Assembly: GCA_944384815.1 (NCBI GenBank)
Contig: CALWUW010000026.1
Location: forward strand, 1-64,000
From: an uncultured Clostridia bacterium
Lineage (GTDB): Bacteria; Bacillota; Clostridia; Oscillospirales; Acutalibacteraceae
DNA length: 64,000 nucleotides
Reading direction: 5' to 3'
A model generated the notes under the pieces. That model searched no databases. It was not told where the DNA came from and was given only the letters and a program-made list of their open reading frames with translations. Positions 5,527-18,586 of the stretch are shown here, one piece after another; the first letter of the stretch is position 1; each line of letters opens with the position of its first letter. A program made the translations under genes and the position numbers.

Positions 5527-5828
5527 TTTAAAAGTGTTCAAAATATTCCATATAAAGGATGTGGCTTCACGGAATTTAAGACAATTTTCACTTGGTCCCA
5601 GAAATGAAATTTTGTTGTTTTTGTCAGATGTTATATAAATTAATTAAGTTTATAGGGGATAAACATACACAATATATATGGATTGAATATCGCATTTTTA
5701 ACAAATAGTTTAAATAATGAATAAATATATAAAATATTATTGGCAAATTATAAACAGATTTCCATACTAAAGTTAACAAAGGGCCGAATTTGAGAATAGG
5801 CTCAAATTTTTTTCAAGGAGGAATGGTT
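5527..5828. other. AT-rich leader region of the ABC importer
   Basis: About 300 bases without a gene. The DNA is clearly richer in A and T than its surroundings, including runs such as AAATATATAAAATATT. A possible promoter is annotated at 5612-5639. No riboswitch or operator palindrome was recognised. Confidence 0.5.
5612..5639 (+). promoter_or_regulatory. Possible promoter of the ABC importer
   Basis: TTGTTG, a 16-nt spacer and TATAAA. The match is moderate and the region is AT-rich, so chance matches are likely. Confidence 0.35.
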
Positions 5829-7226
5829 ATGAAAAAATTGCTGGCACCGTTGCTGGCTTGCGTGCTTTTGATAGGAACATTTGCAGCTTGCAGCAACAAT
5901 CCGTCTGAAAGCAGTTCTGGAAGCGGATCCGGTACTTCTTCCGGCGGAGGAACTTCGGAAGAACCCAAAGGGGAAATTATCGGCGAGAATGTACAGTTCG
6001 ATACAGGCAAAGAGATGGAAGGCGAATTGAATGTCTGGTTCTATGAAGACGGCAAACGTTTCATCCAGCCTCTGTTTGATGATTACCAGAAGTATCGTCC
6101 TAATGTAAAGCTGAACGTTACATATGTAGCTTGGGGTGATTATTGGACCAAGATTCCTGTAGAAGTCAGCGGCGGAAATGGACCGGACGTGTTCTATTTC
6201 CATAATTCCTACCAGAACCTGATGGTAGACAGCGGCTTGATGAAGCCGTATTCGGATGAGCTGGTAGAAGCTCTGCGTAAGGATTACAAAGGCGTAGACA
6301 GCTACGCAGCTCTGGACGGAAACATCTATTATATCGCTACCGGCGGCGGCCACGGTGTTATTTACTACAATAAAGCTCTTTGGGCGGATGCCGGTTTGAC
6401 GGAAGAGGATATTCCGGAAACCTGGGAAGAATTCCGCGAGATCGCTATGCAGCTGACCCAGAAAGAAGGCGACAGTATTAAGGTCGCTGGCTTTAACTAT
6501 ACGCCTGCAAGTGCGTTTATCAACGATTGGAGCCTCTTGAGCGGACGTTTCCTGTTTAGTGAAGACGGCAAGCAGCTTCTCTTTGATAACGATGATTTCA
6601 AGAAATCCATGCAGTTCTTTGTGGATATGTACCTGGTAGATGGAATTTGCTCTCCCACCTTCCCCGATGCAGAGCAGTCCTTTAAGGATGGTACATCGGC
6701 TATGATTTGGAATCATCCGTATTTCGCAGGTATCCTGCGCGGTGAACTTCCGGATTTTGAATTCGGCGTATTCCCGCAGCCCAGATTTGAAGACAAGGAA
6801 CGTAACTGGCACTATAACAACCCGGACGTTTCCATGGGTATCAATGCGCAGTGCGACGAAAAGCAGACGGAGCTGGCAGAAGATCTGCTGACCCTGTTCT
6901 TTGCAAGCGATAAGTATATGCTGGATTGGTGCAAAGAGCAGTGCTTGGCTCCCACTAAGATCTCTCTGGAAGATAACGAAGAGCTGGCATCCGATCCGGT
7001 GATCAAGGTTCTGATGGAAGACTATGACAATAGTATCTACGTTGGTCCTACTCCTAATCAGATGGGCCAGGATTTGGTTCAGACTTTGTTGGACCCCGTT
7101 CTGCTGTCTGGTGTATCCATCGACGAGGCCTTGCCCAATGCAGTAGCCAAAGTAAATCAGACATTGGCGGACTATAACTGGAAGCCTGCTGAATGCGACT
7201 CAGCAATAGCAGACGAGCTTAAATAA
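5829..7226 (+). CDS. Sugar-type ABC transporter substrate-binding lipoprotein
   Basis: A 465-residue extracellular solute-binding protein of family 1 (MalE/UgpB type). The N-terminus has a Lys-Lys start, a hydrophobic stretch and a lipobox-like FAAC, followed by a Ser/Gly-rich linker, so it should be a membrane-anchored lipoprotein. The mature part shows family features such as GGNGPDVFYFHNSY, GVIYYNKALWADAGL and PETWEEFREIA. Start ATG 5829 is 7 bases after AAGGAGG; an ATG at 5823 is too close. It is followed by a terminator-like hairpin and two permease genes; no ATPase is encoded here, so a shared MsmK-type ATPase elsewhere is probably used. The substrate is likely an oligosaccharide or glycoside but cannot be read from the sequence. 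Confidence 0.93.
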   Translation: MKKLLAPLLACVLLIGTFAACSNNPSESSSGSGSGTSSGGGTSEEPKGEIIGENVQFDTGKEMEGELNVWFYEDGKRFIQPLFDDYQKYRPNVKLNVTYVAWGDYWTKIPVEVSGGNGPDVFYFHNSYQNLMVDSGLMKPYSDELVEALRKDYKGVDSYAALDGNIYYIATGGGHGVIYYNKALWADAGLTEEDIPETWEEFREIAMQLTQKEGDSIKVAGFNYTPASAFINDWSLLSGRFLFSEDGKQLLFDNDDFKKSMQFFVDMYLVDGICSPTFPDAEQSFKDGTSAMIWNHPYFAGILRGELPDFEFGVFPQPRFEDKERNWHYNNPDVSMGINAQCDEKQTELAEDLLTLFFASDKYMLDWCKEQCLAPTKISLEDNEELASDPVIKVLMEDYDNSIYVGPTPNQMGQDLVQTLLDPVLLSGVSIDEALPNAVAKVNQTLADYNWKPAECDSAIADELK

Positions 7227-7239
7227 ACTGTTTTTGAAA

Positions 7240-7281
7240 GGCGGGGTGTGGAAAGAAAGAATTCCATACCCCGCCCTTTTT
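7240..7281 (+). terminator. Intra-operon terminator/attenuator
   Basis: A 14-bp stem with one G-T pair (7240-7253 with 7262-7275) and CTTTTT after it, between the binding protein and the first permease. Partial read-through at such a site would give more binding protein than permease. Confidence 0.8.
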
Positions 7282-7315
7282 CAAGACTGGGTGAGGAAAG
7301 AGGTGCAATGATCCT

Positions 7316-8224
7316 ATGAAAAGAGGCAAGTCTCTGACGTTTAAGCAGACGCTGTTTGCGTGGAGCGCGGTAATTCCATGTTTTATTGTTATCTGCATAT
7401 TCGTATTAAGTCCTATTATACAAACTTTTTACGGCAGCTTTTTTAACTGGAATGCTTTGACCGGTAAAATGACATTTAACGGTTTTGATAATTATTCCAA
7501 TGCGTTTAAGGATCCCCTTTTGGGAAAAACATTGCTCAATACGTTTTATCTGACATTTTTCGCAGTTTTGATCAAAACGATTTTAGCTTTCTTTGTGGCC
7601 ATGGCAGTCAGCAGTGTGAAAAAGGTGCAGGGACTTTATCGCTCCATTTTCTTCCTTCCTACGATTTGCACCATGATTGCCACGGCATATGTATTCCGGT
7701 TTTTACTGCAGCCGGAAGCCGGTACCATTAACGGCTATCTTGCCGCCTTGGGAATTTCCGGTCCCGGATGGCTGCTGGATCCCAACTGGGCCATGCCTAC
7801 GGTTATTCTTTTTACGATTTGGAAAGACTTTGGCTACGTATTTTTGATTTTCCTGGCAGGTGTGCAGGGAATTTCAAAAGATGTGGTGGAAGCCGCTATG
7901 ATCGACGGTGCTACCGGATTCAAAAAAGTCCGCTACGTAATTCTTCCCCTTCTGCGGCCTATCACAGTTTATAACGTGGTGACCCAGGTGATCGGATTGC
8001 TGCAGATCTTTATCTCCATCGTGGGCTTGACAGGAGACAGCAGCAACGCGTCCACCGGCGGACCAATGTATTCCACGACAACAACCGGATTGTATATTTA
8101 TCAGCAGGCCTTTATCAGTTATAAACTCGGATATGCTTCGGCAATAGCGGTTATCCTGTTTGTGATCATTATGGTGTTTACGTTATTGCAGATTAAATTT
8201 GGCGACAGGAAGGGGGATTTCTGA
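7316..8224 (+). CDS. ABC transporter permease (MalF/UgpA type)
   Basis: A 302-residue inner membrane permease with six predicted membrane segments. It has the EAA loop that contacts the ATPase: VVEAAMIDGATGFKKVRYVILPLLRP (written here as its key part EAAMIDGATGFKKV). A start at ATG 7316 fits the purine-rich AGGAAAGAGGTG upstream; the ATG at 7308 stops after three codons. Its stop overlaps the start of the second permease as TGATG, so the two are translationally coupled. Together with the upstream lipoprotein it forms a carbohydrate importer of the CUT1 type. Confidence 0.93.
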   Translation: MKRGKSLTFKQTLFAWSAVIPCFIVICIFVLSPIIQTFYGSFFNWNALTGKMTFNGFDNYSNAFKDPLLGKTLLNTFYLTFFAVLIKTILAFFVAMAVSSVKKVQGLYRSIFFLPTICTMIATAYVFRFLLQPEAGTINGYLAALGISGPGWLLDPNWAMPTVILFTIWKDFGYVFLIFLAGVQGISKDVVEAAMIDGATGFKKVRYVILPLLRPITVYNVVTQVIGLLQIFISIVGLTGDSSNASTGGPMYSTTTTGLYIYQQAFISYKLGYASAIAVILFVIIMVFTLLQIKFGDRKGDF

Positions 8225-9064
8225 TGACAGGGATGAATAAACGCCCCATTCGTCCGGGAAAAATCCTGATACATGTTTTTTTGATTCTGGGCTGTGTGAT
8301 TGCTCTGTATCCCTTGTTCTGGATGTTTTTCTCTTCCTTTAAAGCTACGCCGAAAGTTATGAGCGTTCCGCCAAAGTTCTTCCCGGAAGAGCCTACTTTT
8401 GAGAACTATGAGACAATTTTTAAGGATAATCTGGGCGTATTCCTTTGGCAACAGCGTTTATATCGCCATCCTTCGTACAGCAATCCCCGTATATACCAGT
8501 GCTCTTTTAGGGTATATATTTGCGAAGTTCAAATTTAAGGGAAAAAATGTCATCTTCACTATTTTTATAGCTACGATGATGATTCCCTGGGTGGTTACCA
8601 TTATTCCGTTATATAACTTATTTAACCAAATTGATTTGTTAAATACCCACTGGGCATTGATCCTTCCGTCTATTTGCTCCGGCTATGGTGTGTACCTGGT
8701 TCGTTCGTTTATGCACCAGGTTCCTGCTTCTTTGGTTGAATCTGCCCGCATAGACGGATGCGGCGAGTTTAAAATTTTTAACCGGATCGTTCTTCCTTTG
8801 GTGACACCAGCCATGGCCGCTTTGGGAATTATTCTGTTCCTGGGAGCATGGGATGATTATCTCTGGCCTTTCCTGGTGCTGACAGATGAGAAGAAGTATA
8901 CACTGACCATTGGGCTTTCCAAGTATGCGTTCCGACATAAGACCGTTGAGTATGGCCCTGTTCTGGCTGGAGCGGTAATGTCCATCATGCCGGTGGTAAT
9001 CGTATACATAATCCTTCAGAAAAATATTGTGGAAGGAATCAGTATTGGCGGCGTAAAGGGATAA
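8224..9064 (+). pseudogene. Second ABC permease (MalG/UgpE type) with a +1 frameshift
   Basis: The first 74 codons from ATG 8224 give the usual MalG-like N-terminus (ALYPLFWMFFSSFK, then NYETIFKDNLGV). The rest of the protein, from FGNSVYIAILRTAI to the end at 9064, is in the next frame. The change occurs at 8440-8448, read TTC CTT TGG; removing one base gives VFFGNSVYI and one continuous protein of about 279 residues, the normal size. The second part holds the EAA loop (ESARIDGCGEFKIFNRIVLP). Either an indel in this strain, a sequencing error in the CC/TTT tract, or programmed +1 frameshifting at a CTT-TGG site. Without it the importer has only one intact permease. Confidence 0.88.
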
Positions 9065-9698: not shown

Positions 9699-10817
9699 TC
9701 AATATTGTCCGTATTCCTGGATAGCAAACATCACAGCCCGCATACTGGTCAGAAGGGAGCCATTGTTAATGGAACCGGCGGTGCTTATGTTCAAGCCACG
9801 GCTTTTGCAGGCGCGAATGCTTTCACAGTCCCTTCGAACCTCCGCAATGATGGCTTCTTCGTCGTTGCCCATGAATGTAAACGGAGCCAGTTGCCCGTCA
9901 ATGCGTGTATTAGGCATATAGCGACGGATTTCCTCCACTGTTACGGTAGGACCGAAATTGCAGCCGGTCAAATTAAGCCGGGAAAGAATGGGTATTAGGT
10001 GCCCCATGGCAGAATCCGAGTGTTGGTAGCGTTCGTCTTCCGGATTGGGAGAGCACAGAGAAAAAACTTCTTTCAAAATTGGAAATCCAAAGATCTCATA
10101 CATTTCCGGTGTGAACAAATTACAGTCATCGTCTGCGAAAGAGAAACCGTGGGGAGCGGTTTCGGGGGTATACCCTGCCTCCCGTGTGGAAACCCGGATG
10201 TAAGTGAGAATGACCCGAAGGATGCTTTGGCTGAACCGGAGGAAAAGTTCCGGAGCATCATAATAGAGAAATATCAGATTTTCTGTGCCAAAAATGGAAG
10301 TAGCCAGCGTTACAGGCCCTCGAACGTGTCGCCATAGAGGCGGCTTTGTACCGTAAGTTTGGAAGATTCGTTCCTTTTCCCGATACCAGTTGGAAGGAAG
10401 CAGAAAATCTTCCACATCCATTCGATCGACTCGATCCAGTACAGCTTCCAGTTCTTCAGGGGTTTGGCAAGAGCTTTTCAGCCAGGTTACGTTTCCGTCA
10501 AATACGTAGGAACCGCCGAACACTTCTCCGATTCCGCGATACGCCGGGAAAATTTCATCCGGATGAGGGAAATTCTCCCGAAGCAGACGTTTTCCCACGA
10601 TTTTCTCCGCTTTGTCATTATAGCGCCGGTTCAGTTCCATCCGTCGTTCTCTGGGAGTTTCACCCCAGGGATTTCCCGGTTCTCCCAGCTCTGCAAAAAC
10701 ACATTCATCGCTCATTCGGATTCCTAAAGCAACTTGCTTTGCTGTTGAGGAAAAACAGTTTTCTTCATGTGCGCGTTCATCCTCTGCCCAAAATCGTTCC
10801 AGATCTACCGGCCTCAT
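9699..10817 (-). CDS. URO-D superfamily protein (methyltransferase-like), subtype 1
   Basis: A 372-residue protein of the uroporphyrinogen decarboxylase/MtaA fold, a TIM barrel. It lacks the N-terminal RPVWxMRQAGR of true HemE, so it is not a heme enzyme. Recognisable parts are the FADDDCNLFTPEMYEIFGFP segment typical of the superfamily, HSDSAMGHLIPIL in the place where MtaA-type enzymes have a zinc ligand His, and TGCNFGPTV. Start ATG 10817 follows AAAGGAG. Relatives act as corrinoid- or thiol-dependent methyltransferases in O-demethylation and methanol/methylamine pathways; the substrate here is unknown. It is divergent from an AraC gene, with a repeat-rich spacer between them, and lies in a locus with two more URO-D proteins and a glycosidase. 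Confidence 0.8.
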   Translation of the reverse strand: MRPVDLERFWAEDERAHEENCFSSTAKQVALGIRMSDECVFAELGEPGNPWGETPRERRMELNRRYNDKAEKIVGKRLLRENFPHPDEIFPAYRGIGEVFGGSYVFDGNVTWLKSSCQTPEELEAVLDRVDRMDVEDFLLPSNWYREKERIFQTYGTKPPLWRHVRGPVTLATSIFGTENLIFLYYDAPELFLRFSQSILRVILTYIRVSTREAGYTPETAPHGFSFADDDCNLFTPEMYEIFGFPILKEVFSLCSPNPEDERYQHSDSAMGHLIPILSRLNLTGCNFGPTVTVEEIRRYMPNTRIDGQLAPFTFMGNDEEAIIAEVRRDCESIRACKSRGLNISTAGSINNGSLLTSMRAVMFAIQEYGQY

Positions 10818-10845
10818 ACATACGGCTCCTTTCAATTTACACATT

Positions 10846-10941
10846 TGCGTGACTGCGTAACTATGTAACTATGTAGCTGCGTAACCACATGACTGTGAGT
10901 TTATGTGCCTGTGTGCCTGCGTCTTTGAACTTCTGTAGTCT
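10846..10941. repeat. Imperfect tandem repeat, 8-nt unit, about 12 copies
   Basis: Units keep an exact 8-nt register with consensus TGYGTAAC; the first nine units are the clearest and later ones decay. The tract fills the spacer between the divergent URO-D and AraC genes. Confidence 0.85.
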
Positions 10942-11076
10942 GTACGGTTGCGTATTCCCATGGATTTAGGCTGTACATAAGCTTTCTGATATGATACAGT
11001 ATACAAAAAGCGGAGAAAAAGTACATGGATAAATTCGGCAGGATTTGCACAAAATACGGATTTTTGGGGTGAAACT

Positions 11077-11814
11077 ATGGATCTTTCCGTAGAGTATTTT
11101 GTCCATAAGCGTTGTTCTTCTCAGTGGCAGTTAGCGCCTGAAAGGATTCCTTTCCATGATTTGACCTTTCTGCTGAAAGGAAGTGGCGCCTATTATTCGG
11201 AAAGCGGAGAATATTGGTTGCGTGCCGGGCAGGCGGTGTATCTTCCCAAGGAAAGTTTGAGACGTGCTCAAACCCAAGGGATGGAATGCGTGGCGTTTAA
11301 TTTTCAGGCAAGTTCTCCTATCCCTTTATCTCCGGGCGTTTTAGATTGGGAACAGGATGAGCTGCTGAGAAATTATTTTTTGAACTTTGAGAAGGTATGG
11401 ATGAGTTTGGACCCGCAGAGATCTCTTTATGGGCAGGGAATGCTGCTGCTGATTCTGCATCGTTTGCAGACGCTTTCCGGGCGCAAGCAAAATAGTCCTC
11501 ATGTGGAAACCATACGGCAATATTTGGAGCAGCATTATCTGGAGCCGCTTACGGTGGAGGAAGTGGCGGCTTCCGTAGGATTAAGCCCTTCATACTGTGG
11601 GGCGTTATTCCGAAAAGAAACCGGACGCACGATTTTACAGACAGTCAATCTTCTGCGAATCAATCGCGCCAGTGCAATGTTGGCATATGGAGGGTCCGGA
11701 ATTACGGAAGTGGCATTGGAATGTGGTTTTTCAGATTTGTTCTATTTCAGCCGTGTTTTTCGAAAAGTAACAGGCCGCTCTCCCCGGCAATATGCCGCTG
11801 AGATGAACAAATGA
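11077..11814 (+). CDS. AraC-family transcriptional regulator
   Basis: A 245-residue regulator. The N-terminal ~130 residues form a cupin-like ligand-sensing domain (FHDLTFLLKGSGAYYSESGEYWLRAGQAVYLPK). The C-terminal ~100 residues hold two helix-turn-helix motifs: LTVEEVAASVGLSPSYCGALFRK and ITEVALECGFSDLFYFSRVFRK, ending in GRSPRQYAAE. ATG 11077 follows GGGGTG. It is divergent from the URO-D gene at 9699 and runs in the same direction as the glycosidase 55 bases downstream, so it probably controls one or both in response to a sugar or glycoside. Confidence 0.92.
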   Translation: MDLSVEYFVHKRCSSQWQLAPERIPFHDLTFLLKGSGAYYSESGEYWLRAGQAVYLPKESLRRAQTQGMECVAFNFQASSPIPLSPGVLDWEQDELLRNYFLNFEKVWMSLDPQRSLYGQGMLLLILHRLQTLSGRKQNSPHVETIRQYLEQHYLEPLTVEEVAASVGLSPSYCGALFRKETGRTILQTVNLLRINRASAMLAYGGSGITEVALECGFSDLFYFSRVFRKVTGRSPRQYAAEMNK

Positions 11815-11869
11815 TTTTACGATTAACGAATCAGGCTCTATAAATATTCTTTGAAAGGAAGGGAAATGG

Positions 11870-12808
11870 ATGTATTTCGAACCCAAAGCGCCGCTTTACC
11901 GGGATCCTATTTGGGATGGTGCGGCAGATCCTGTGGTGATTTGGAACCGGGAGGAAAAAAACTGGTGGATGCTGTATACCAATCGGAGAGCCGCCGCCAT
12001 CAATCACGGAGTAAGCTATATTCACGGCACACGGATCGGTGTAGCCAGTTCCGGGGACGGCGGAAGAACTTGGCTTTACCGGGGTGAATTGGATCTGGAG
12101 TTTGAAAAGGGACACAACACCTTTTGGGCGCCGGAGGTGATCTGGGCACAGGGGAAATATCATATGTATGTTTCTTATGTCCGGGGAATCCCTCAGGAAT
12201 GGCAAGGTGACCGGCATATCCTGCATTATACGGCGGATACACTGTGGGACTGGAAATGGGAAGGCGTTGTGCCTCTTTCTTCGGAACGGGTGATTGATGC
12301 CTGTGTATGTGAAGTCCGCCCAGGGGAATATAAGCTTTGGTATAAGGATGAAGCCCATGGCTCCCATACATATTCCGCTGTCAGCCGGGATTTGTATCAC
12401 TGGAGCGTTCTGGGGCCGGAGATCCAGCGGAATCCTCATGAAGGGCCAAATGTGTTTTCTTTTGCAGGAAAATTCTGGATGCTGACAGATCCCTGGCATG
12501 GCTTGGACGTATACAGCAGCTTGGATGCTTCCCAGTGGGAATACCGGGGCAATATTCTGCGAACCCCAGGGATTCGTCCGGACGATGGGAGTATAGGCGG
12601 GCATGCGGATGTGGTGGTGCATCAGGGGCACGCATATGTTTTTTACTTTACCCATCCCCAGGTAACGGAGGAGCAGAGAAATCAGGAGGACTTTGTCTGG
12701 GAATACCAGCATCGGCGTTCTTCCATTCAGGTGGCAGAGCTTCAGGAAAAAGACGGAAATCTGATTTGTTCCCGGGATCATGTCCTGTTTTCTTTGGATC
12801 CTGTGTAA
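11870..12808 (+). CDS. Five-bladed beta-propeller glycoside hydrolase-like protein
   Basis: A 312-residue protein with the blade repeats of GH43/GH32/GH117-like enzymes: DPVVIWNREEKNWWMLYT, GIASS-type GVASSGDGGRTWLYRG, WAPEVIWAQGKYHMYVSY, YKLWYKDEAHGSH, GKFWMLTDPWHGLDVYSS and a last HAYVFYFTHP. An Asp in the first blade (GAADPVV) is a candidate catalytic base; the exact family cannot be fixed by eye. There is no signal peptide, so it acts in the cytoplasm on an imported glycoside or oligosaccharide. ATG 11870 follows AAAGGAAGGG. It lies between two AraC genes and close to the ABC importer, which suggests a shared catabolic pathway. The stop codon lies in the first unit of a 9-nt duplication. 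Confidence 0.82.
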   Translation: MYFEPKAPLYRDPIWDGAADPVVIWNREEKNWWMLYTNRRAAAINHGVSYIHGTRIGVASSGDGGRTWLYRGELDLEFEKGHNTFWAPEVIWAQGKYHMYVSYVRGIPQEWQGDRHILHYTADTLWDWKWEGVVPLSSERVIDACVCEVRPGEYKLWYKDEAHGSHTYSAVSRDLYHWSVLGPEIQRNPHEGPNVFSFAGKFWMLTDPWHGLDVYSSLDASQWEYRGNILRTPGIRPDDGSIGGHADVVVHQGHAYVFYFTHPQVTEEQRNQEDFVWEYQHRRSSIQVAELQEKDGNLICSRDHVLFSLDPV

Positions 12809-12820
12809 ACCGTGTAAACG
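12803..12820. repeat. Two-copy 9-nt direct repeat over a stop codon
   Basis: GTGTAAACC is followed by GTGTAAACG. The first copy holds the TAA that ends the glycosidase gene. Confidence 0.7.
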
Positions 12821-12840
12821 AAGCTTTAAAATTTAGAAGA

Positions 12841-12874
12841 AAAACCCGCGGAAGAATTTTTCCGCGGGTTTTTT
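12841..12874 (+). terminator. Terminator between convergent glycosidase and AraC genes
   Basis: A 13-bp perfect stem (12841-12853 with 12860-12872), six-base loop and T tract; A tract on the left makes it bidirectional. Confidence 0.93.
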
Positions 12875-13052
12875 GGCTTCTTTTTCAATACTGAAAGTAT
12901 ATTCTGATTTAAAATAGTCATATAGTAGTAAAATCGCTTGTATAAAAAAGACAATGTGTTGATTCTGATGTGCGGCAGAGGGCACAAGGCATGGTATACG
13001 TTACATAGCTTTATGGGGATAAAAGAAAAAAGGAGCCGGCCCAGCCGTTGCG

Positions 13053-13925
13053 TCAATCTTGAATGGAAGAAAGCAGCTTTTTCTGGTACTGCAAAGGAGT
13101 CATACCGAAACGGCGCTTGAATTTACGGTAAAAAAAGGCGTTATCTGTAAATCCGCATTTTTCCCAAATTTGGGCCAGAGGGCATTGCCGTTCCGCCATA
13201 AGCTGGCAGGCATACTGCAGGCGAAGCTCCGAAAGGTAGGAAGAGGGTGTGGTGCCATAAATCTCTTTAAATACCCGGTCATATTGGCGGGGAGAGAGAA
13301 AAACCTGCTCTGCCAGCTGAGGAATGGTGATTTTTTGCCGAAGATTTTCTTCCATAAAGGTGACAGTGGGGATGATTTTTTCCATGCGCAGGGAAAGAGC
13401 ATTCTCATCCGGCAGAAAGCACCGGGCCAGATAAGCTGTCAGCGCCAGAAGATGGGTTCGGATAATGATTTTGTACCCGGGTCTGCGCTGGGAGAATTCC
13501 TGAAACATGGTGGAGATCAGCATGCGTACATGCTCCAGCTGCTGCGCATCCAGAAGCAGAGGCGCTCCCGCTTTTTGGCTTTGCAGGGAAGGAGGACATT
13601 GAATAAACAAAGAACGAAATCCGGCATGGTTGCGCAGGTCATATCCATAGGAATTCAGGCCGTTTAAGTCGAATTTCAGCACATACATTTCCAGATCTTT
13701 CATTTTATCCATTTCATGAGCCAACGGAGGGGGAACCGTTACAACAGCGCCGGTGGAAAGAAGAAATTTTCCTTTGTCCGAACAATGCCATCCTGTGCCG
13801 CTGAGCACCACCAAAAGTTCCGTATAAGAATGGGTGTGTTCCGGAAAAAATCCCTGGGCTACCGCGTATTCCGCCGCAAAGGGAAATGTGTCGTCCGGTC
13901 TTCCTGTTATATCATAGCTTCGCAA
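13053..13925 (-). CDS. AraC-family transcriptional regulator with cupin domain
   Basis: A 290-residue regulator. Residues ~15-90 form the cupin sensor (EHTHSYTELLVVLSGTGWHCSDKGKFLLSTGAVVTVPP). The C-terminal domain has helix-turn-helix motifs ITIPQLAEQVFLSPRQYDRVFKE and LAQIWEKCGFTDNAFFYRKFKRRFG, ending GMTPLQYQ. The start is TTG at 13925, placed after GGGAGGG; there is no better ATG. It is divergent from the two URO-D genes at 14083 and 15140 and most likely controls them. The mirror arrangement of URO-D1 with the other AraC gene makes a paired pattern. Confidence 0.92.
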   Translation of the reverse strand: MRSYDITGRPDDTFPFAAEYAVAQGFFPEHTHSYTELLVVLSGTGWHCSDKGKFLLSTGAVVTVPPPLAHEMDKMKDLEMYVLKFDLNGLNSYGYDLRNHAGFRSLFIQCPPSLQSQKAGAPLLLDAQQLEHVRMLISTMFQEFSQRRPGYKIIIRTHLLALTAYLARCFLPDENALSLRMEKIIPTVTFMEENLRQKITIPQLAEQVFLSPRQYDRVFKEIYGTTPSSYLSELRLQYACQLMAERQCPLAQIWEKCGFTDNAFFYRKFKRRFGMTPLQYQKKLLSSIQD

Positions 13926-14082
13926 AGGCGACCCTCCCTTTTCAATCGTTGGTATGTCTCAAGAATACAATAACAAGTCCGGAATGTCAATTGCGGAAAA
14001 AAGAGCACAGGTTATAATGAAAGAGAATTTGAAGCAGATTGAGTAGATTAAACAGAAGAACATAAAAGAGAGGAAGATACGT

Positions 14083-15087
14083 ATGAATCGACGGGAACGG
14101 GTTCAGCTGGCTATCCGGCATCTGGAAGGAGACGGGATCCCTTCCTGCATCCATTTGGACGCAGGCGGGCAGAAAAAATACTTTGACGCTCTCATGGAGA
14201 AATACGTTCACGGAGAAATCTTGGAACTGTATCGGGAAGGAAAAATTTCCAAACGGCATGCCATTTATTATTCCATGGGGAATCATGTGCTTACTGTGGA
14301 TTGTCCGTGGTGGGATTGGTATCAGGTGCCGGAAGAGTATCTGCAGGAAGAGGCGCCGGAGTATCTTCCCCGTACCATAGGCACAGGCAGCTATGAGGAG
14401 TTTATTCGCCAGATCCAAAGCATCAAGCAGTATACGGATGCGTATGTTTTGGTTACTATCTGGGGAAGCCACTTTGAAAAAGCGTATTTTGCCAGAGGAA
14501 TCGAGAATTTTCTGGCGGACCTGGCGGTGGAGCCGGAATATGCGGAAAAGCTGCTGAAAACCATTATCCGGAAAAACATGGTGATGCTGGAAAATATTGT
14601 GCATATCCCGGGAATCGACGGGATTCTTCTGGGAAGCGACTGGGGCTCCCAAAAGGATTTGCTTATGTCTCCTAATGTGTGGCGGCAGCTGATCCGTCCG
14701 GGAGAAGAAGAGGAGTATGCGCTGATTCGGGAAGCGGGGCTGGATGTATGGGTGCATTCCTGCGGCAATATTCGCCGGATCATGCCCGATCTGGCGGAAA
14801 TAAAAGTGGATGTTTTAAACCCTCTGCAACCGGAGTGTATGGATGTCTATGAAATTAAAAAGGAGTTTGGCAACGCTATGACCTTCTGGGGCGGCATAAG
14901 CACACAGGAGATTTTGCCCTATGGCACGCCGGAGCAGGTTCGGGAAGAAACGCTGAAAATCGCGAAAAATCTCTCGAAGGGCGGCGGCTATATTACGGCG
15001 CCTTCCCAGGAGATTCAGGCGGATGTTCCTTTCGAAAATCTTTGCATGCTGGTGGATACAGCCAAAGAATTGGCGGGAATCGATTAA
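14083..15087 (+). CDS. URO-D superfamily protein (methyltransferase-like), subtype 2
   Basis: A 334-residue URO-D/MtaA-fold protein. It keeps the zinc-type motif of methylcobamide methyltransferases, VWVHSCGN (His-x-Cys), and the following GGISTQEILPYGTPEQVREE, which matches the GGIdxxxxLpxGtpeeV pattern. IDGILLGSDWGSQKDLLMSPNVWRQLIRP is the superfamily's central segment. No HemE N-terminal motif is present. Start ATG 14083 follows GAGAGGAAG. It is followed after 52 bases by a third URO-D gene and is divergent from an AraC gene. A corrinoid-dependent methyl transfer is plausible from the retained Zn ligands, but no corrinoid protein is encoded in the window. Confidence 0.83.
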   Translation: MNRRERVQLAIRHLEGDGIPSCIHLDAGGQKKYFDALMEKYVHGEILELYREGKISKRHAIYYSMGNHVLTVDCPWWDWYQVPEEYLQEEAPEYLPRTIGTGSYEEFIRQIQSIKQYTDAYVLVTIWGSHFEKAYFARGIENFLADLAVEPEYAEKLLKTIIRKNMVMLENIVHIPGIDGILLGSDWGSQKDLLMSPNVWRQLIRPGEEEEYALIREAGLDVWVHSCGNIRRIMPDLAEIKVDVLNPLQPECMDVYEIKKEFGNAMTFWGGISTQEILPYGTPEQVREETLKIAKNLSKGGGYITAPSQEIQADVPFENLCMLVDTAKELAGID

Positions 15088-15139
15088 GGATAATCGGTTT
15101 TTATCCGTAATATAAACCGTATAAAAAGGAGGAAGTTGT

Positions 15140-16198
15140 ATGTCCAAAATCCATGGAATGCAGGCGCTGAATCTGGAAATGCCGGAGCGGGTACCCAGAA
15201 CGGAGTATTCTGTTCTGGGGCATCCGGAACTATTGACGCGTGTTACGGGGATACCGGTAACTAAGGACTCTTCTCCGGATGTTTGGCGGCAGGCGCAAAG
15301 AGCCTTTCTTAAAGCCTGGAACTTTGACTTTATGTGGAATACGGATATCGCCCACTCCATTTTTGGGGAGTATTATACGGATATGGGCCACGCGGTATAC
15401 GCAGCCGGAGGAACGGATTTCAGCGCGGCAAAGGAAAGTAAATTTAAGGATGAAGACGATGTTCTGGCGTTTGATCCCTGGGAAGCCTTTGGGGAGAGAA
15501 AGGAAGAGGAGATCATTGCCTTTTTGAATCAGGAGTATGCGCGAGGCTGTGATTTCTGGGACGACGCCGTGAATATGAACGGCATCTATGTCACCTGCAT
15601 GTCCGGATTGATTGATCTGTTTGGCTGGGACCTTTTGCTGACGGCGGCAGGGGTGGATCCCAAGGGGTTTGGTGAAACGGCTAACCGGTATGCCCAGTGG
15701 GTGCAGCAGTATATAAACGCCCTGGCCAAATGCCAGGCTCCGGTGATTATGCTCCACGACGATATTGTATGGACGGAAGGGCCGTTTTTGCATCCTCAGT
15801 GGTATCGGGAGTATATTTTCCCCAACTATAAAAAGTATCTTCGCCCGCTTTTGGAGGCAGGGAAGAAAGTGCTCTTTACTTCCGATGGGTGTTACACCCA
15901 GTTTGTGGATGATATTGCCCAGTGCGGATTTCATGGCTTTGTGCTGGAACCGGGCACCGATATGGAGTATATCGCCCATAAATATGGGAAGACCCACGCG
16001 TTTGTTGGAAACGCAGATACCCGCATTTTGCTGATGGGAGACCGGGAAGACATTTATAAAGAGGTAAAGCGGTGCATGGATATTGGGAAAAACTGCCCCG
16101 GCTTTTTCATGGCAGTGGGGAATCACATTCCGGCTAATACCCCGGTGGACCATGCTTTATGGTACAATGAATTTTATGAAGAGCTTTCCCGGCGTTAA
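15140..16198 (+). CDS. URO-D superfamily protein, subtype 3
   Basis: A 352-residue URO-D-fold protein in the same operon as subtype 2. Superfamily features are VIMLHDDIVWTEGPFLHPQWYREYIFP (central segment), VLFTSDGCYTQFVDDIAQCGFHGFVLEPGTDM and AFVGNADTRILLMGDREDI. The His-x-Cys zinc motif of subtype 2 is replaced by TSDGCY, so the metal site, if any, differs. The N-terminal PERVPRTEYSVLGHPELLTRVTG segment is typical of gut Clostridia proteins of this group with no assigned role. Start ATG 15140 follows AGGAGGAAG. The pair may form a heteromer or act in series; this is inference. Confidence 0.82.
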   Translation: MSKIHGMQALNLEMPERVPRTEYSVLGHPELLTRVTGIPVTKDSSPDVWRQAQRAFLKAWNFDFMWNTDIAHSIFGEYYTDMGHAVYAAGGTDFSAAKESKFKDEDDVLAFDPWEAFGERKEEEIIAFLNQEYARGCDFWDDAVNMNGIYVTCMSGLIDLFGWDLLLTAAGVDPKGFGETANRYAQWVQQYINALAKCQAPVIMLHDDIVWTEGPFLHPQWYREYIFPNYKKYLRPLLEAGKKVLFTSDGCYTQFVDDIAQCGFHGFVLEPGTDMEYIAHKYGKTHAFVGNADTRILLMGDREDIYKEVKRCMDIGKNCPGFFMAVGNHIPANTPVDHALWYNEFYEELSRR

Positions 16199-16318: not shown

Positions 16319-18586
16319 TCAGGAAAGGCCGATCTCTTTTCTCAGATAAGGAGCCGTTACGGAATGGGGACATTCCAGCATAGCAGCCGGTGTGCCGGAA
16401 AAAAGCAGATGGCCGCCCCGGTGTCCTCCCCCGGGGCCTAATTCCACCACATAGTCCGCGGCTTTTAAAACTTCCAGGCTGTGCTCGATGAGAAATACGG
16501 AATTTCCGTTTTCTACCATGCGCCGAAACAGATCCAGCAGCCGGCGGATATCTCCAATGTGCAGGCCGTCCGTGGGTTCATCCAAAATGAAGATCTGGTT
16601 CTTTTCTCCCAGATAGGAAGCCAGTTTCAGGCGCTGCAGCTCTCCTCCCGAAAGCGTGGAGAGGGACTGATTCAAATGCAGATAGGAAAGCCCTACTTCC
16701 AAAAGAGGAAGAAGCAACGTGCGGACCGATGTTCCCTGGAACCATTCCGCCGCCTGAGCAACGGTCAGATCCAGAACCTGAGCGATGTTCAGGCCGTCCA
16801 CTGTATATTGCAGCACCTCCGGAGAATATCGAAGGCCCTGGCAGGCTTCACATACAGTTTCAATGGAATCCATAAAGGCCATATCCGACACTAAAACGCC
16901 CTTGCCTGCGCATACAGGACAAGCCCCCTTGCCGTTAAAGGAAAAAAGGCTGGCTTTTACGCCGCAGCGTTTGGCGAAAATTTTCCGGATCTCATCGGCG
17001 GCCCCCAGGTAGGTGGCTGGGGTGGAACGCAGACTGATGCCAATATTTTTCTGGCTGATATACACGGGGGTTTCCTGGGCCGCCTTGCAGAAGCACTCCA
17101 TCAGGGAGCTTTTCCCGGAACCCGCTACTCCGGCAATCACCGCCAGCACTCCCAAAGGAAGGGACACATTCAGGTTCTGCAGATTATGAAGGGAAAGGTT
17201 CTTCAGCGGAAACCATCCGTTGGGGGCTTTCGGAGAAGGATTCAGCCCTCCGGTCTCCAGGAGCAGCCGTGCCGTCAGCGTATTGCTGTTTAAAAAATCC
17301 GCCCGGGAACCCTGAAACAGGATCTCTCCGCCGGAAGAACCCGGCCCGGGACCCATATCCACCACATAGTCCGCCGCCAAGATCATCTCTTTATGGTGCT
17401 CCACCAGAAGGACCGTGTTTCCCCGGTCCCGAAGCTGTTCCACCGCTTCCCGAAGCCGGTAGATGTCATGGCTGTGAAGCCCCACACTGGGCTCGTCCAG
17501 AATATACAAAAGATCGGAAAGGGAGGAATTGTTGTATTTGGCGATTTTGCAGCGCTGGGCTTCCCCGCCGGAAAGGGTGTTCATCCCCCGGTCCAGAGTA
17601 AGATAATCCAGGCCGATCTGTACCAGGCCGGAAAGCCTCGCCTTTAAAGTTCTTACAATATCTTCCCCCAAAGGATCGGTAATGGCGCAGACCCAGTCCA
17701 ACAATTCCTCCAAGGGCATGGCGGCCGCTTCCGCAATGTTCTTTCCCTGGATCTTGCAGGAAAGGATCTTAGGATTCAGCCTGGCTCCGTGGCATTCCGG
17801 GCAAACCCCTTGAGTCACCATGGGCTCCAGGATCTTCCAGTGCAGCTTCCCTTCCTCGGACTGGATCACGCTGCGGTACATTCGAGGAACCAAACCCTCG
17901 TATTTGGCGGTTTTGGGCCAATTTTCCGGCCTGGGATTCAGACGGATCTGGGGAGAGTAGAGAAAAAGCTCCAGCTCTTCCGGGGTATAGTCCCGGATTT
18001 TTTTATTGAGATCAAACAGGCCGCTGTTGGCGTAACGGATCCAGCGCCACTGCCCGGGTTCAAAATCCACGTAATGGATCACTCCGGGGTCGTTCAGGCA
18101 TTTATCAAAATCCACCAGCTTGTGGATATCCAAATCCGTAACCTGGCCCAATCCGTCACAGCGCAGGCACCGCCCTTGGGGGTGATTAAAGGAAAAACTG
18201 TCAGAATAGCCTACAAACGGCTTTCCCACCCGGGAAAATAAAAGGCGGAGCAGGGCGTAGATGTCCGTATACGTTCCCACAGTGGATCGGGCGTTGGGCG
18301 CAGGCTTCTTTTGGTCAATGACAATGGCCGCCGGAAGATGGTCGATCCGGCTGACATGGGGCCTGCCGTATTTGGGTAGATAGTTTTGCACAAAGCTGGG
18401 GAACGTATCGTTCAGCTCCCGCCTGGACTGGGCGGCGATGGTGTCCATCACCAAAGAGGATTTCCCGGAGCCGGAGACGCCGGTAAAAACCGTAATGGCT
18501 CCTTTGGGGATGTCCAAAGAAAGATGTTTCAGGTTGTTTTCATACGCGTTTTCTACATGGATATATTCATGGGTATTGATCTCCAT
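16319..18586 (-). CDS. Short UvrA-like ABC ATPase
   Basis: A 755-residue paralogue of UvrA with two ABC ATPase modules. Walker A motifs are GVSGSGKSSL and GVAGSGKSSL, signatures LSGGEAQR and LSGGELQR, Walker B LYILDEPSVGLH and IFILDEPTDGLH. Zinc-finger cysteines appear in CLRCDGLG, CPECHGAR, CPVCAGKG and CEACQGL. Standard UvrA is about 940 residues; the missing part corresponds to the UvrB-interacting insertion, so this protein probably does not act in normal UvrABC repair. Short UvrA homologues are linked to resistance to DNA-binding drugs. Start ATG 18586 follows ACGGAGG. It is monocistronic and convergent with the URO-D operon. Confidence 0.9.
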   Translation of the reverse strand: MEINTHEYIHVENAYENNLKHLSLDIPKGAITVFTGVSGSGKSSLVMDTIAAQSRRELNDTFPSFVQNYLPKYGRPHVSRIDHLPAAIVIDQKKPAPNARSTVGTYTDIYALLRLLFSRVGKPFVGYSDSFSFNHPQGRCLRCDGLGQVTDLDIHKLVDFDKCLNDPGVIHYVDFEPGQWRWIRYANSGLFDLNKKIRDYTPEELELFLYSPQIRLNPRPENWPKTAKYEGLVPRMYRSVIQSEEGKLHWKILEPMVTQGVCPECHGARLNPKILSCKIQGKNIAEAAAMPLEELLDWVCAITDPLGEDIVRTLKARLSGLVQIGLDYLTLDRGMNTLSGGEAQRCKIAKYNNSSLSDLLYILDEPSVGLHSHDIYRLREAVEQLRDRGNTVLLVEHHKEMILAADYVVDMGPGPGSSGGEILFQGSRADFLNSNTLTARLLLETGGLNPSPKAPNGWFPLKNLSLHNLQNLNVSLPLGVLAVIAGVAGSGKSSLMECFCKAAQETPVYISQKNIGISLRSTPATYLGAADEIRKIFAKRCGVKASLFSFNGKGACPVCAGKGVLVSDMAFMDSIETVCEACQGLRYSPEVLQYTVDGLNIAQVLDLTVAQAAEWFQGTSVRTLLLPLLEVGLSYLHLNQSLSTLSGGELQRLKLASYLGEKNQIFILDEPTDGLHIGDIRRLLDLFRRMVENGNSVFLIEHSLEVLKAADYVVELGPGGGHRGGHLLFSGTPAAMLECPHSVTAPYLRKEIGLS

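Follow-up and report, generated by a model that had tools for sequence, protein, structure and literature searches.

Three divergent URO-D proteins in two neighbouring AraC-linked modules of an uncultured Clostridia bacterium: candidate corrinoid-dependent demethylation of methylated sugars

The window analysed here is a 64-kb stretch of DNA from the start of a 73.9-kb contig (CALWUW010000026.1) from an uncultured Clostridia bacterium; the assembly comprises 2.0 Mb in 37 contigs and is 92.6% complete. Within a short segment it encodes three proteins of the URO-D superfamily (UroD1, UroD2 and UroD3), two AraC-family regulators (AraC1 and AraC2) and a glycosidase. The locus is best explained as two catabolic modules under AraC control that adjoin each other by chance, and whose URO-D proteins would be methyltransferases moving the methyl groups of O-methylated sugars to a shared corrinoid protein encoded on contig 15 of the same genome. 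We give this explanation a probability of roughly 0.4. Gene content, subfamilies, conserved motifs, neighbouring genes and the one corrinoid/activase cluster of the genome are observed directly; that methyl groups are transferred, that the URO-D proteins share one corrinoid protein, and which substrates they use we infer from gene context at a few loci.

All six reading frames were confirmed in position by an ORF check (Table 1). A first reading of the window from its letters alone (the original prediction) had described each AraC gene as divergent from one URO-D gene, with a propeller glycosidase between the two regulators. Coordinates and strands agree (AraC1 with UroD1, AraC2 with UroD2), and the propeller protein belongs to GH159. 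The gaps from UroD1 through AraC1, the glycosidase, AraC2 and UroD2 to UroD3 are 232, 55, 244, 157 and 52 bp. The two divergent intergenic regions have no 9-12-base word in common on either strand that might mark a shared operator.

The three URO-D proteins all exceed the Pfam URO-D cut-off of 23.9 bits (UroD1 38.6, UroD2 68.2 and UroD3 81.9). The best match covers a C-terminal part in each case (residues 164-343, 119-329 and 173-341, respectively), leaving the HemE-type N-terminus unmatched in all three, as first proposed. They are clearly different subtypes, falling in separate tree clades with none above the cut-off of any NCBIfam model. In a quick tree search without bootstraps, covering 100 URO-D proteins from the loci with no characterised enzyme among them, UroD1 grouped with 38 others (SH-aLRT 99), UroD3 with 14 (100) and UroD2 with 4 (100). 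UroD1 has no NCBIfam match at all; the best for UroD2 is MtaA/CmuA (61.2 bits, cut-off 235.4) and for UroD3 a methylcobalamin:CoM methyltransferase (49 bits, cut-off 244). Membership of MtaA/CmuA (TIGR01463, PRK06252) was rejected because UroD2 and UroD3 score far under the cut-offs and UroD1 is unmatched. HemE (TIGR01464) was also rejected; its sole match is UroD3, with 18.3 against 302.95 bits over residues 186-338. Profile comparison speaks for homology between UroD2 and UroD3 (97.9%, 3.5e-13) and between UroD1 and UroD3 (86.6%, 4.4e-6), and only the pair UroD1 and UroD2 is weak (13%, 0.002). Against the PDB, the UroD1 profile met no URO-D chain and gave no convincing match; the UroD3 profile met uroporphyrinogen decarboxylase (3.5e-7), then MtaA (2e-4) and CdmB (0.0023).

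The motifs were correctly read at the outset as HSDS in UroD1, HSCG in UroD2 and TSDG in UroD3, and hhalign profile comparisons bring them into one register. HSDS is invariant in 47/47 aligned sequences and HSCG in 9/9, while the Asp and Gly of TSDG are invariant in 24/24. The UroD1 alignment (A1) holds 44 of the 54 full-length UroD1 proteins together with the window's own, L135 and L136; the ten left out were redundant or oddly started. The His-x-Cys plus third Cys zinc site of MtaA/CmuA is incomplete in all three proteins: its first Cys, as found in S-methyltransferases, is Asp in UroD1 and UroD3, and UroD2 keeps His-x-Cys with Gln in place of the second Cys, the third site position (alignment to 4ay7). 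An Asp replacing Cys has been reported for O- rather than S-methyltransferases (PMC10418091). UroD1 represents a broad family, with 66 loci in GTDB genomes of Bacillota, Planctomycetota, Lentisphaerota, Spirochaetota and others, and with 45-84% identity across most of A1, across phyla.

It had been predicted that no corrinoid protein is encoded here. This is correct for the window, by family search, and incorrect for the genome, in which family searches located one corrinoid-binding protein and one RACo-type activase, both on contig 15. Also encoded in this stretch are a fusion of a URO-D protein with a thioredoxin domain, another two URO-D proteins, an arabinofuranosidase and AraC regulators. 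Nine Pfam-level URO-D proteins in the genome (eight by family search, plus UroD1), of which three are in the window and three on contig 15, face the one corrinoid protein found; that search overlooked UroD1, so searches of this kind can undercount, which may also apply to the single corrinoid protein. The thioredoxin fusion (locus L010 on contig 15, 13255-14613; domain by Pfam) is MtaA-like, lies directly after the sole corrinoid protein and has, by eye, Phe-Val-Cys at the His-x-Cys motif; it is possibly the second methyltransferase of this hub. A separate family of 360-388 amino acids, without a Pfam match and grouped together in the URO-D tree, has one copy at L010 5126-6292, preceding the arabinofuranosidase and a URO-D gene, and another at L055 8573-9655, following UroD3.

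Corrinoid/activase clusters of two relatives back the idea of methyl transfer. In L272, a UroD2 ortholog (53% identity) is flanked on one side by a corrinoid protein and an AraC-family gene and on the other by a RACo-type activase and an MtaA-like URO-D, the only such cluster among nine UroD2 ortholog loci. In L215, a distant UroD1 homolog (46%) forms a co-directional run with two other URO-D genes, a corrinoid protein, an activase, L-rhamnose isomerase (RhaA), a rhamnulokinase-like kinase, a class II aldolase and a protein that resembles the methionine synthase activation domain weakly, below threshold. For one of these L215 URO-D proteins, the closest relative in the tree comes from a Christensenella assembly (L177), where it is immediately adjacent to UroD1. 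A RACo-type activase is present in 20/20 UroD1-positive genomes versus 23/60 randomly drawn UroD1-negative genomes (Fisher p=3e-7), as a shared corrinoid protein predicts.

A sugar context for the URO-D proteins, also part of the original prediction, was borne out by the gene neighbourhoods of relatives. Locus genes were called with a codon-usage script, and neighbours were named by eye unless Pfam or NCBIfam is cited. The 83 UroD1 loci include six duplicates, giving 77 distinct; tblastn finds a UroD1 sequence in 83/83, and the script called no UroD1 in 5 of the 66 named loci. Genes for GH67, glucuronate isomerase or a rhamnulokinase-like kinase lie at most 8 kb from UroD1 in nine of the 83 loci, which together suggest that UroD1 may be an enzyme for methylated sugars. 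GH67 alpha-glucuronidase, which releases 4-O-methylglucuronate from xylan (PMC5217386), occurs in five of the loci against about 0.04 expected from class density, a figure that assumes a mean genome of 2.75 Mb and the density of one class, many loci coming from elsewhere. It stands directly downstream of UroD1 in L165, L167 and L183 (about 20 and 50 bp away in L165 and L183), at most 1 kb from it in L127, and 7 kb from it in L217. L127 also contains an importer and an AraC gene, as does L217 along with a GH3 enzyme. In L175, UroD1 is directly preceded by the genes for glucuronate isomerase and D-mannonate oxidoreductase, in that order, and followed by one for a sugar-isomerase-like TIM barrel. 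Counterparts of these four genes recur in L159, where a GH10 xylanase and an importer come ahead of UroD1 and the uronate pair stands 6-7 kb behind it. The rhamnulokinase-like kinase recurs in L215 and L219, and an oligogalacturonate lyase (L177) and a pectinesterase (L197) are found at other UroD1 loci. The UroD1 locus of Oligosphaera ethanolica (L218), a cultivable anaerobe, has neither a GH67 nor a rhamnose gene. The window's own genome has a glucuronate isomerase. A protein of about 570-590 amino acids also recurs in UroD1 loci (L159 12317-14020, L187 296-2050 and L190 9167-10942); its L159 member has no Pfam match.

UroD3 neighbours include mannitol-dehydrogenase-like, PfkB kinase, lyxose-isomerase-like and sugar kinase genes, with glycine-cleavage-like genes in two genomes, which suggests sugar metabolism without a clear substrate. 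In L143, L147 and L149, a UroD3 ortholog is accompanied by PfkB kinase, mannitol-dehydrogenase and NAD-dependent epimerase genes and a distant URO-D, L143 and L149 also having a D-lyxose-isomerase-like gene; all three share a further protein, of which the L147 member has no Pfam match. This stretch is a candidate sugar pathway with two URO-D proteins. Other UroD3 orthologs (47-49%), in genomes of one genus, adjoin glycine-cleavage-like genes (L151 and L152) or serine-synthesis-like genes (L153), as judged by eye.

Several observations weigh against demethylation of sugars through a shared corrinoid protein. A corrinoid protein was found in just 1/83 UroD1, 1/9 UroD2 ortholog and 0/23 UroD3 loci, the RACo enrichment could be explained by other URO-D proteins in the same genomes, and no enzyme that would accept the methyl group was identified. 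The methyl ethers of sugars have poor leaving groups. In the PDB, the UroD3 profile matches uroporphyrinogen decarboxylase better than MtaA or CdmB. A penicillin-binding-protein-like gene (by eye) is common to L127, L165 and L167, which reduces the five GH67 loci to about three independent cases, with p ~1e-5, or 0.005 if there is one GH67 per genome; in L217 the GH67 gene is at a distance. At genome level GH67 co-occurs only weakly with UroD1 (6/20 UroD1 genomes against 2.05 expected, p=0.01) and does not co-occur with UroD3 (3 against 2.66 expected), and UroD3 loci provide a weak GH67 control owing to their short total stretch of 321 kb. UroD1 in L219 is a contig-end fragment (residues 9-102). 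The window's own genome gave no match to GH67 or GH115 in a genome search, so the methylated sugar would need another route in this organism. The neighbours of UroD1 are mostly diverse, and a conserved neighbourhood is mostly absent, with few recurring families. Sugar families show just a modest excess among near over far genes (per 100 genes, isomerase-type TIM barrels 6 vs 2, GFO/IDH/MocA oxidoreductases 4 vs at most 1, AraC 5 vs 3), and importer permeases are no commoner (6 vs 7); the near set (A3) was 100 of 151 neighbours, hand-picked to thin redundant or very long ones, and for the far set (A4) 125 far genes were shuffled and the first 100 taken.

In the favoured explanation, AraC1 would sense an oligosaccharide and the GH159 enzyme would trim a furanosyl residue from the same oligosaccharides. 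UroD1, acting as the methyltransferase of the first step (MT-I), would take the methyl group of an O-methylated sugar and place it on the Co(I) of the contig-15 corrinoid protein, which the reductive activase, also encoded on contig 15, would keep active. The MtaA-like thioredoxin fusion or another enzyme would pass the methyl group on, and the freed sugar would enter ordinary sugar or uronate catabolism. UroD2 and UroD3 would do likewise for a second methylated compound. The likeliest substrate for UroD1, judged from its neighbours, would be 4-O-methyl-D-glucuronate or a similar methylated sugar derived from arabinoglucuronoxylan or from pectin side chains; plant xylan commonly carries 4-O-methylglucuronate as a side group. 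A wider form of the idea, which we consider doubtful, is that UroD1 typifies a new, widespread class of B12-dependent sugar-ether demethylases in anaerobes of Clostridia, Planctomycetes and Lentisphaerae, in which scattered, substrate-specific URO-D proteins would charge one corrinoid protein with methyl groups taken from plant or algal sugars such as 4-O-methylglucuronate and O-methyl-rhamnose. In this form, GFO/IDH/MocA oxidoreductases and isomerase-type TIM barrels near some of these proteins may oxidise the sugar beforehand, which would ease ether cleavage.

UroD1 and UroD3 might instead be AraC-regulated TIM-barrel enzymes of sugars or sugar acids with a new, corrinoid-independent reaction, such as decarboxylation, C-O lysis or isomerisation. 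Both have altered Zn-type ligands, UroD1 is well conserved across phyla and yet lies away from corrinoid genes at 82/83 loci, uronate and sugar oxidoreductase genes are among the neighbours, and it is uroporphyrinogen decarboxylases, which are cofactor-free, that the UroD3 profile matches best. We regard this as unlikely, given the activase in every UroD1 genome tested, the L215 homolog beside a corrinoid protein and activase, and the unmatched HemE N-terminal region.

Less probable still is that the URO-D proteins are corrinoid methyltransferases for small methylated compounds released from plant fibre (methoxylated aromatics, methyl thiols or other methyl ethers) and adjoin sugar genes through co-induction on plant material. 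The corrinoid clusters of L215 and L272 would suit this too. Characterised URO-D O-demethylases use methoxylated aromatics and CdmB uses haloalkanes (PMC13222342), and type 1 mlp clusters are proposed to act on methyl-sulfur or methyl-selenium compounds (PMC10418091). It accords poorly with the co-directional sugar runs that contain UroD1 (uxaC-uxuB-UroD1 in L175, UroD1-GH67 in L165 and L183, corrinoid-UroD1-rhaA-kinase in L215) and with the replacement of the S-methyltransferase Cys by Asp in UroD1 and UroD3 and of the third-position Cys by Gln in UroD2.

The original prediction had joined both modules and the importer in one linked system for a methoxylated glycoside. The modules do adjoin each other in this genome, and UroD1 and UroD3 occur together in 11/391 genomes of the class, the window's own included, against 1.3 expected (p=1e-9; UroD1 in 20 genomes, UroD3 in 26), but they are apart in relatives, and we find a single conserved system very improbable. 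In G134, of another genus in the same family, UroD1 and AraC1 are on contig 24 and UroD2, UroD3 and AraC2 on contig 33 (identities to the window 80% for UroD1, 73% for UroD2 and 77% for UroD3), and each of the nine further class genomes with both has its UroD1 match on another contig than its UroD3 match; as many of these assemblies are in pieces, this does not prove a UroD1-UroD3 distance in every genome. UroD3 is in 0/83 UroD1 loci, and UroD1 in 0/23 UroD3 loci. The trio UroD1 (83%), AraC1 (69%) and GH159 (73%) is kept in L154, the only one of the 83 loci to do so, and on this basis the glycosidase was assigned to the UroD1 module; L154 has no UroD2 or UroD3 within the 11.6 kb examined, its contig stopping about 0.6 kb past GH159. 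A fixed UroD2-UroD3 pair was considered and rejected: the two are adjacent just in the window, in G134 and, with UroD2 reduced to an 88-amino-acid remnant beside UroD3, in G500, and 8/9 UroD2 ortholog loci lack UroD3 in the stretch examined. What looked like a UroD2 near UroD3 in L143, L147 and L149 is a 24% relative and was not counted.

AraC1 relatives are also divergent from UroD1 in L056 (66%) as well as in L154, and an AraC2 relative (67%) adjoins UroD2-UroD3 in L055; Pfam recognises no ligand domain in AraC1. The glycosidase is assigned to GH159 by homology to Ch_Gaf159A (4.1e-110) and by retention of all three catalytic residues, its D20, D143 and E191 aligning with D19, D142 and E190. 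Ch_Gaf159A, with which it shares family and catalytic residues, acts as a galactofuranosidase and an arabinofuranosidase, with arabinoxylan oligosaccharides among its substrates, and is proposed to be intracellular (PMC9278983).

Among known systems, the URO-D O-demethylases and CdmB (MtvB, OdmB, VdmB and MtoB; corrinoid-dependent MT-I) resemble the window proteins in having a URO-D domain by profile, in Cys ligands that are lost or reduced in the window proteins, and in that some window URO-D relatives cluster with a corrinoid protein and activase. They differ in that the window proteins are far in sequence (the UroD3 profile meets CdmB at 0.0023), and have a sugar rather than an aromatic or halogenated context, usually with no adjoining corrinoid gene. 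A likeness to MtaA/CmuA and to Mlp (type 1 mlp clusters) lies in the best NCBIfam matches of UroD2 and UroD3, in the MtaA group, and in the contig-15 hub with its corrinoid protein, MtaA-like protein and activase; the scores far under cut-offs and the incomplete His-Cys-Cys site set the window proteins apart from MtaA/CmuA. Aldouronate utilisation clusters of the Paenibacillus JDR-2 type contain GH67, a xylanase or xylosidase and a sugar importer. L217, L127 and L159 hold such genes plus UroD1, unlike the window's genome, which is without GH67; we know of no URO-D protein assigned to these clusters. In Eubacterium limosum, the MttB-type proteins MtpB, MtcB and MtyB, encoded in separate clusters, methylate one corrinoid protein, MtqC (PMC8604678). 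The arrangement is alike in having several separately encoded methyltransferases and one corrinoid protein, which the window's URO-D proteins would share; it differs in using the MttB superfamily and quaternary amines instead of URO-D proteins and sugars. Marine bacteria demethylate 6-O-methyl-D-galactose oxidatively (PMC10033563), like the proposed route acting on a free methylated sugar, but with a P450 monooxygenase and release of formaldehyde.

URO-D corrinoid methyltransferases with aromatic, haloalkane and thiol substrates are known (PMC13222342, PMC10418091), and a sugar-directed set would be a new addition to them. Among the matches listed in the open-access literature (titles and beginnings of abstracts), there was no sugar-directed URO-D corrinoid methyltransferase and no paper on anaerobic removal of the methyl group of 4-O-methylglucuronate, and for sugar O-demethylation the matches gave the P450 monooxygenase route only. 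If true, the proposal would connect the breakdown of plant fibre with one-carbon metabolism in anoxic settings by a B12-dependent route, supply a function for a part of the URO-D superfamily now without one, and could close a gap in what is known of the use of methylated plant sugars by microbes living without oxygen.

Table 1. Features of the two modules and the nearby importer (positions in the window)
Feature	Position	Strand	Evidence
UroD1, URO-D superfamily, 381 aa	9699..10844	-	Pfam URO-D 8.4e-10
UroD1 His-Ser-Asp-Ser (residues 275-278), replaces His-x-Cys	10011..10022	-	47/47 aligned sequences
Intergenic region UroD1/AraC1, divergent, 232 bp	10845..11076		
AraC1, AraC-family regulator, divergent from UroD1	11077..11814	+	Pfam HTH_AraC/HTH_18
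GH159 glycosidase	11870..12808	+	4.1e-110 to Ch_Gaf159A 7zei
AraC2, AraC-family regulator, cupin-type ligand domain, divergent from UroD2	13053..13925	-	Pfam AraC_binding, HTH_18
UroD2, URO-D superfamily, 334 aa	14083..15087	+	Pfam 8.3e-19
UroD2 His-Ser-Cys-Gly (residues 225-228)	14755..14766	+	9/9 aligned sequences
UroD3, URO-D superfamily, 352 aa	15140..16198	+	Pfam 5.9e-23
UroD3 Thr-Ser-Asp-Gly (residues 247-250)	15878..15889	+	hhalign register with HSCG (UroD2), HSDS (UroD1)
ABC solute-binding protein, sugar-type; link to modules uncertain	5790..7226	+	Pfam SBP_bac_1 4.9e-29
ABC permease 1 (UgpA/MalF-like)	7316..8224	+	Pfam, NCBIfam
ABC permease 2 (UgpE/MalG-like), frameshift-split in assembly	8224..9064	+	ORFs, Pfam, NCBIfam

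The sugar-type importer noticed near the modules is indeed present at 5790-9064, but its second permease gene is frameshifted into two reading frames (8224-8538 and 8399-9064); the split may be an assembly error or the mark of a pseudogene. Downstream of the modules, on the opposite strand, positions 16319-18586 encode a UvrA-like ABC protein (by eye) with no link to them.

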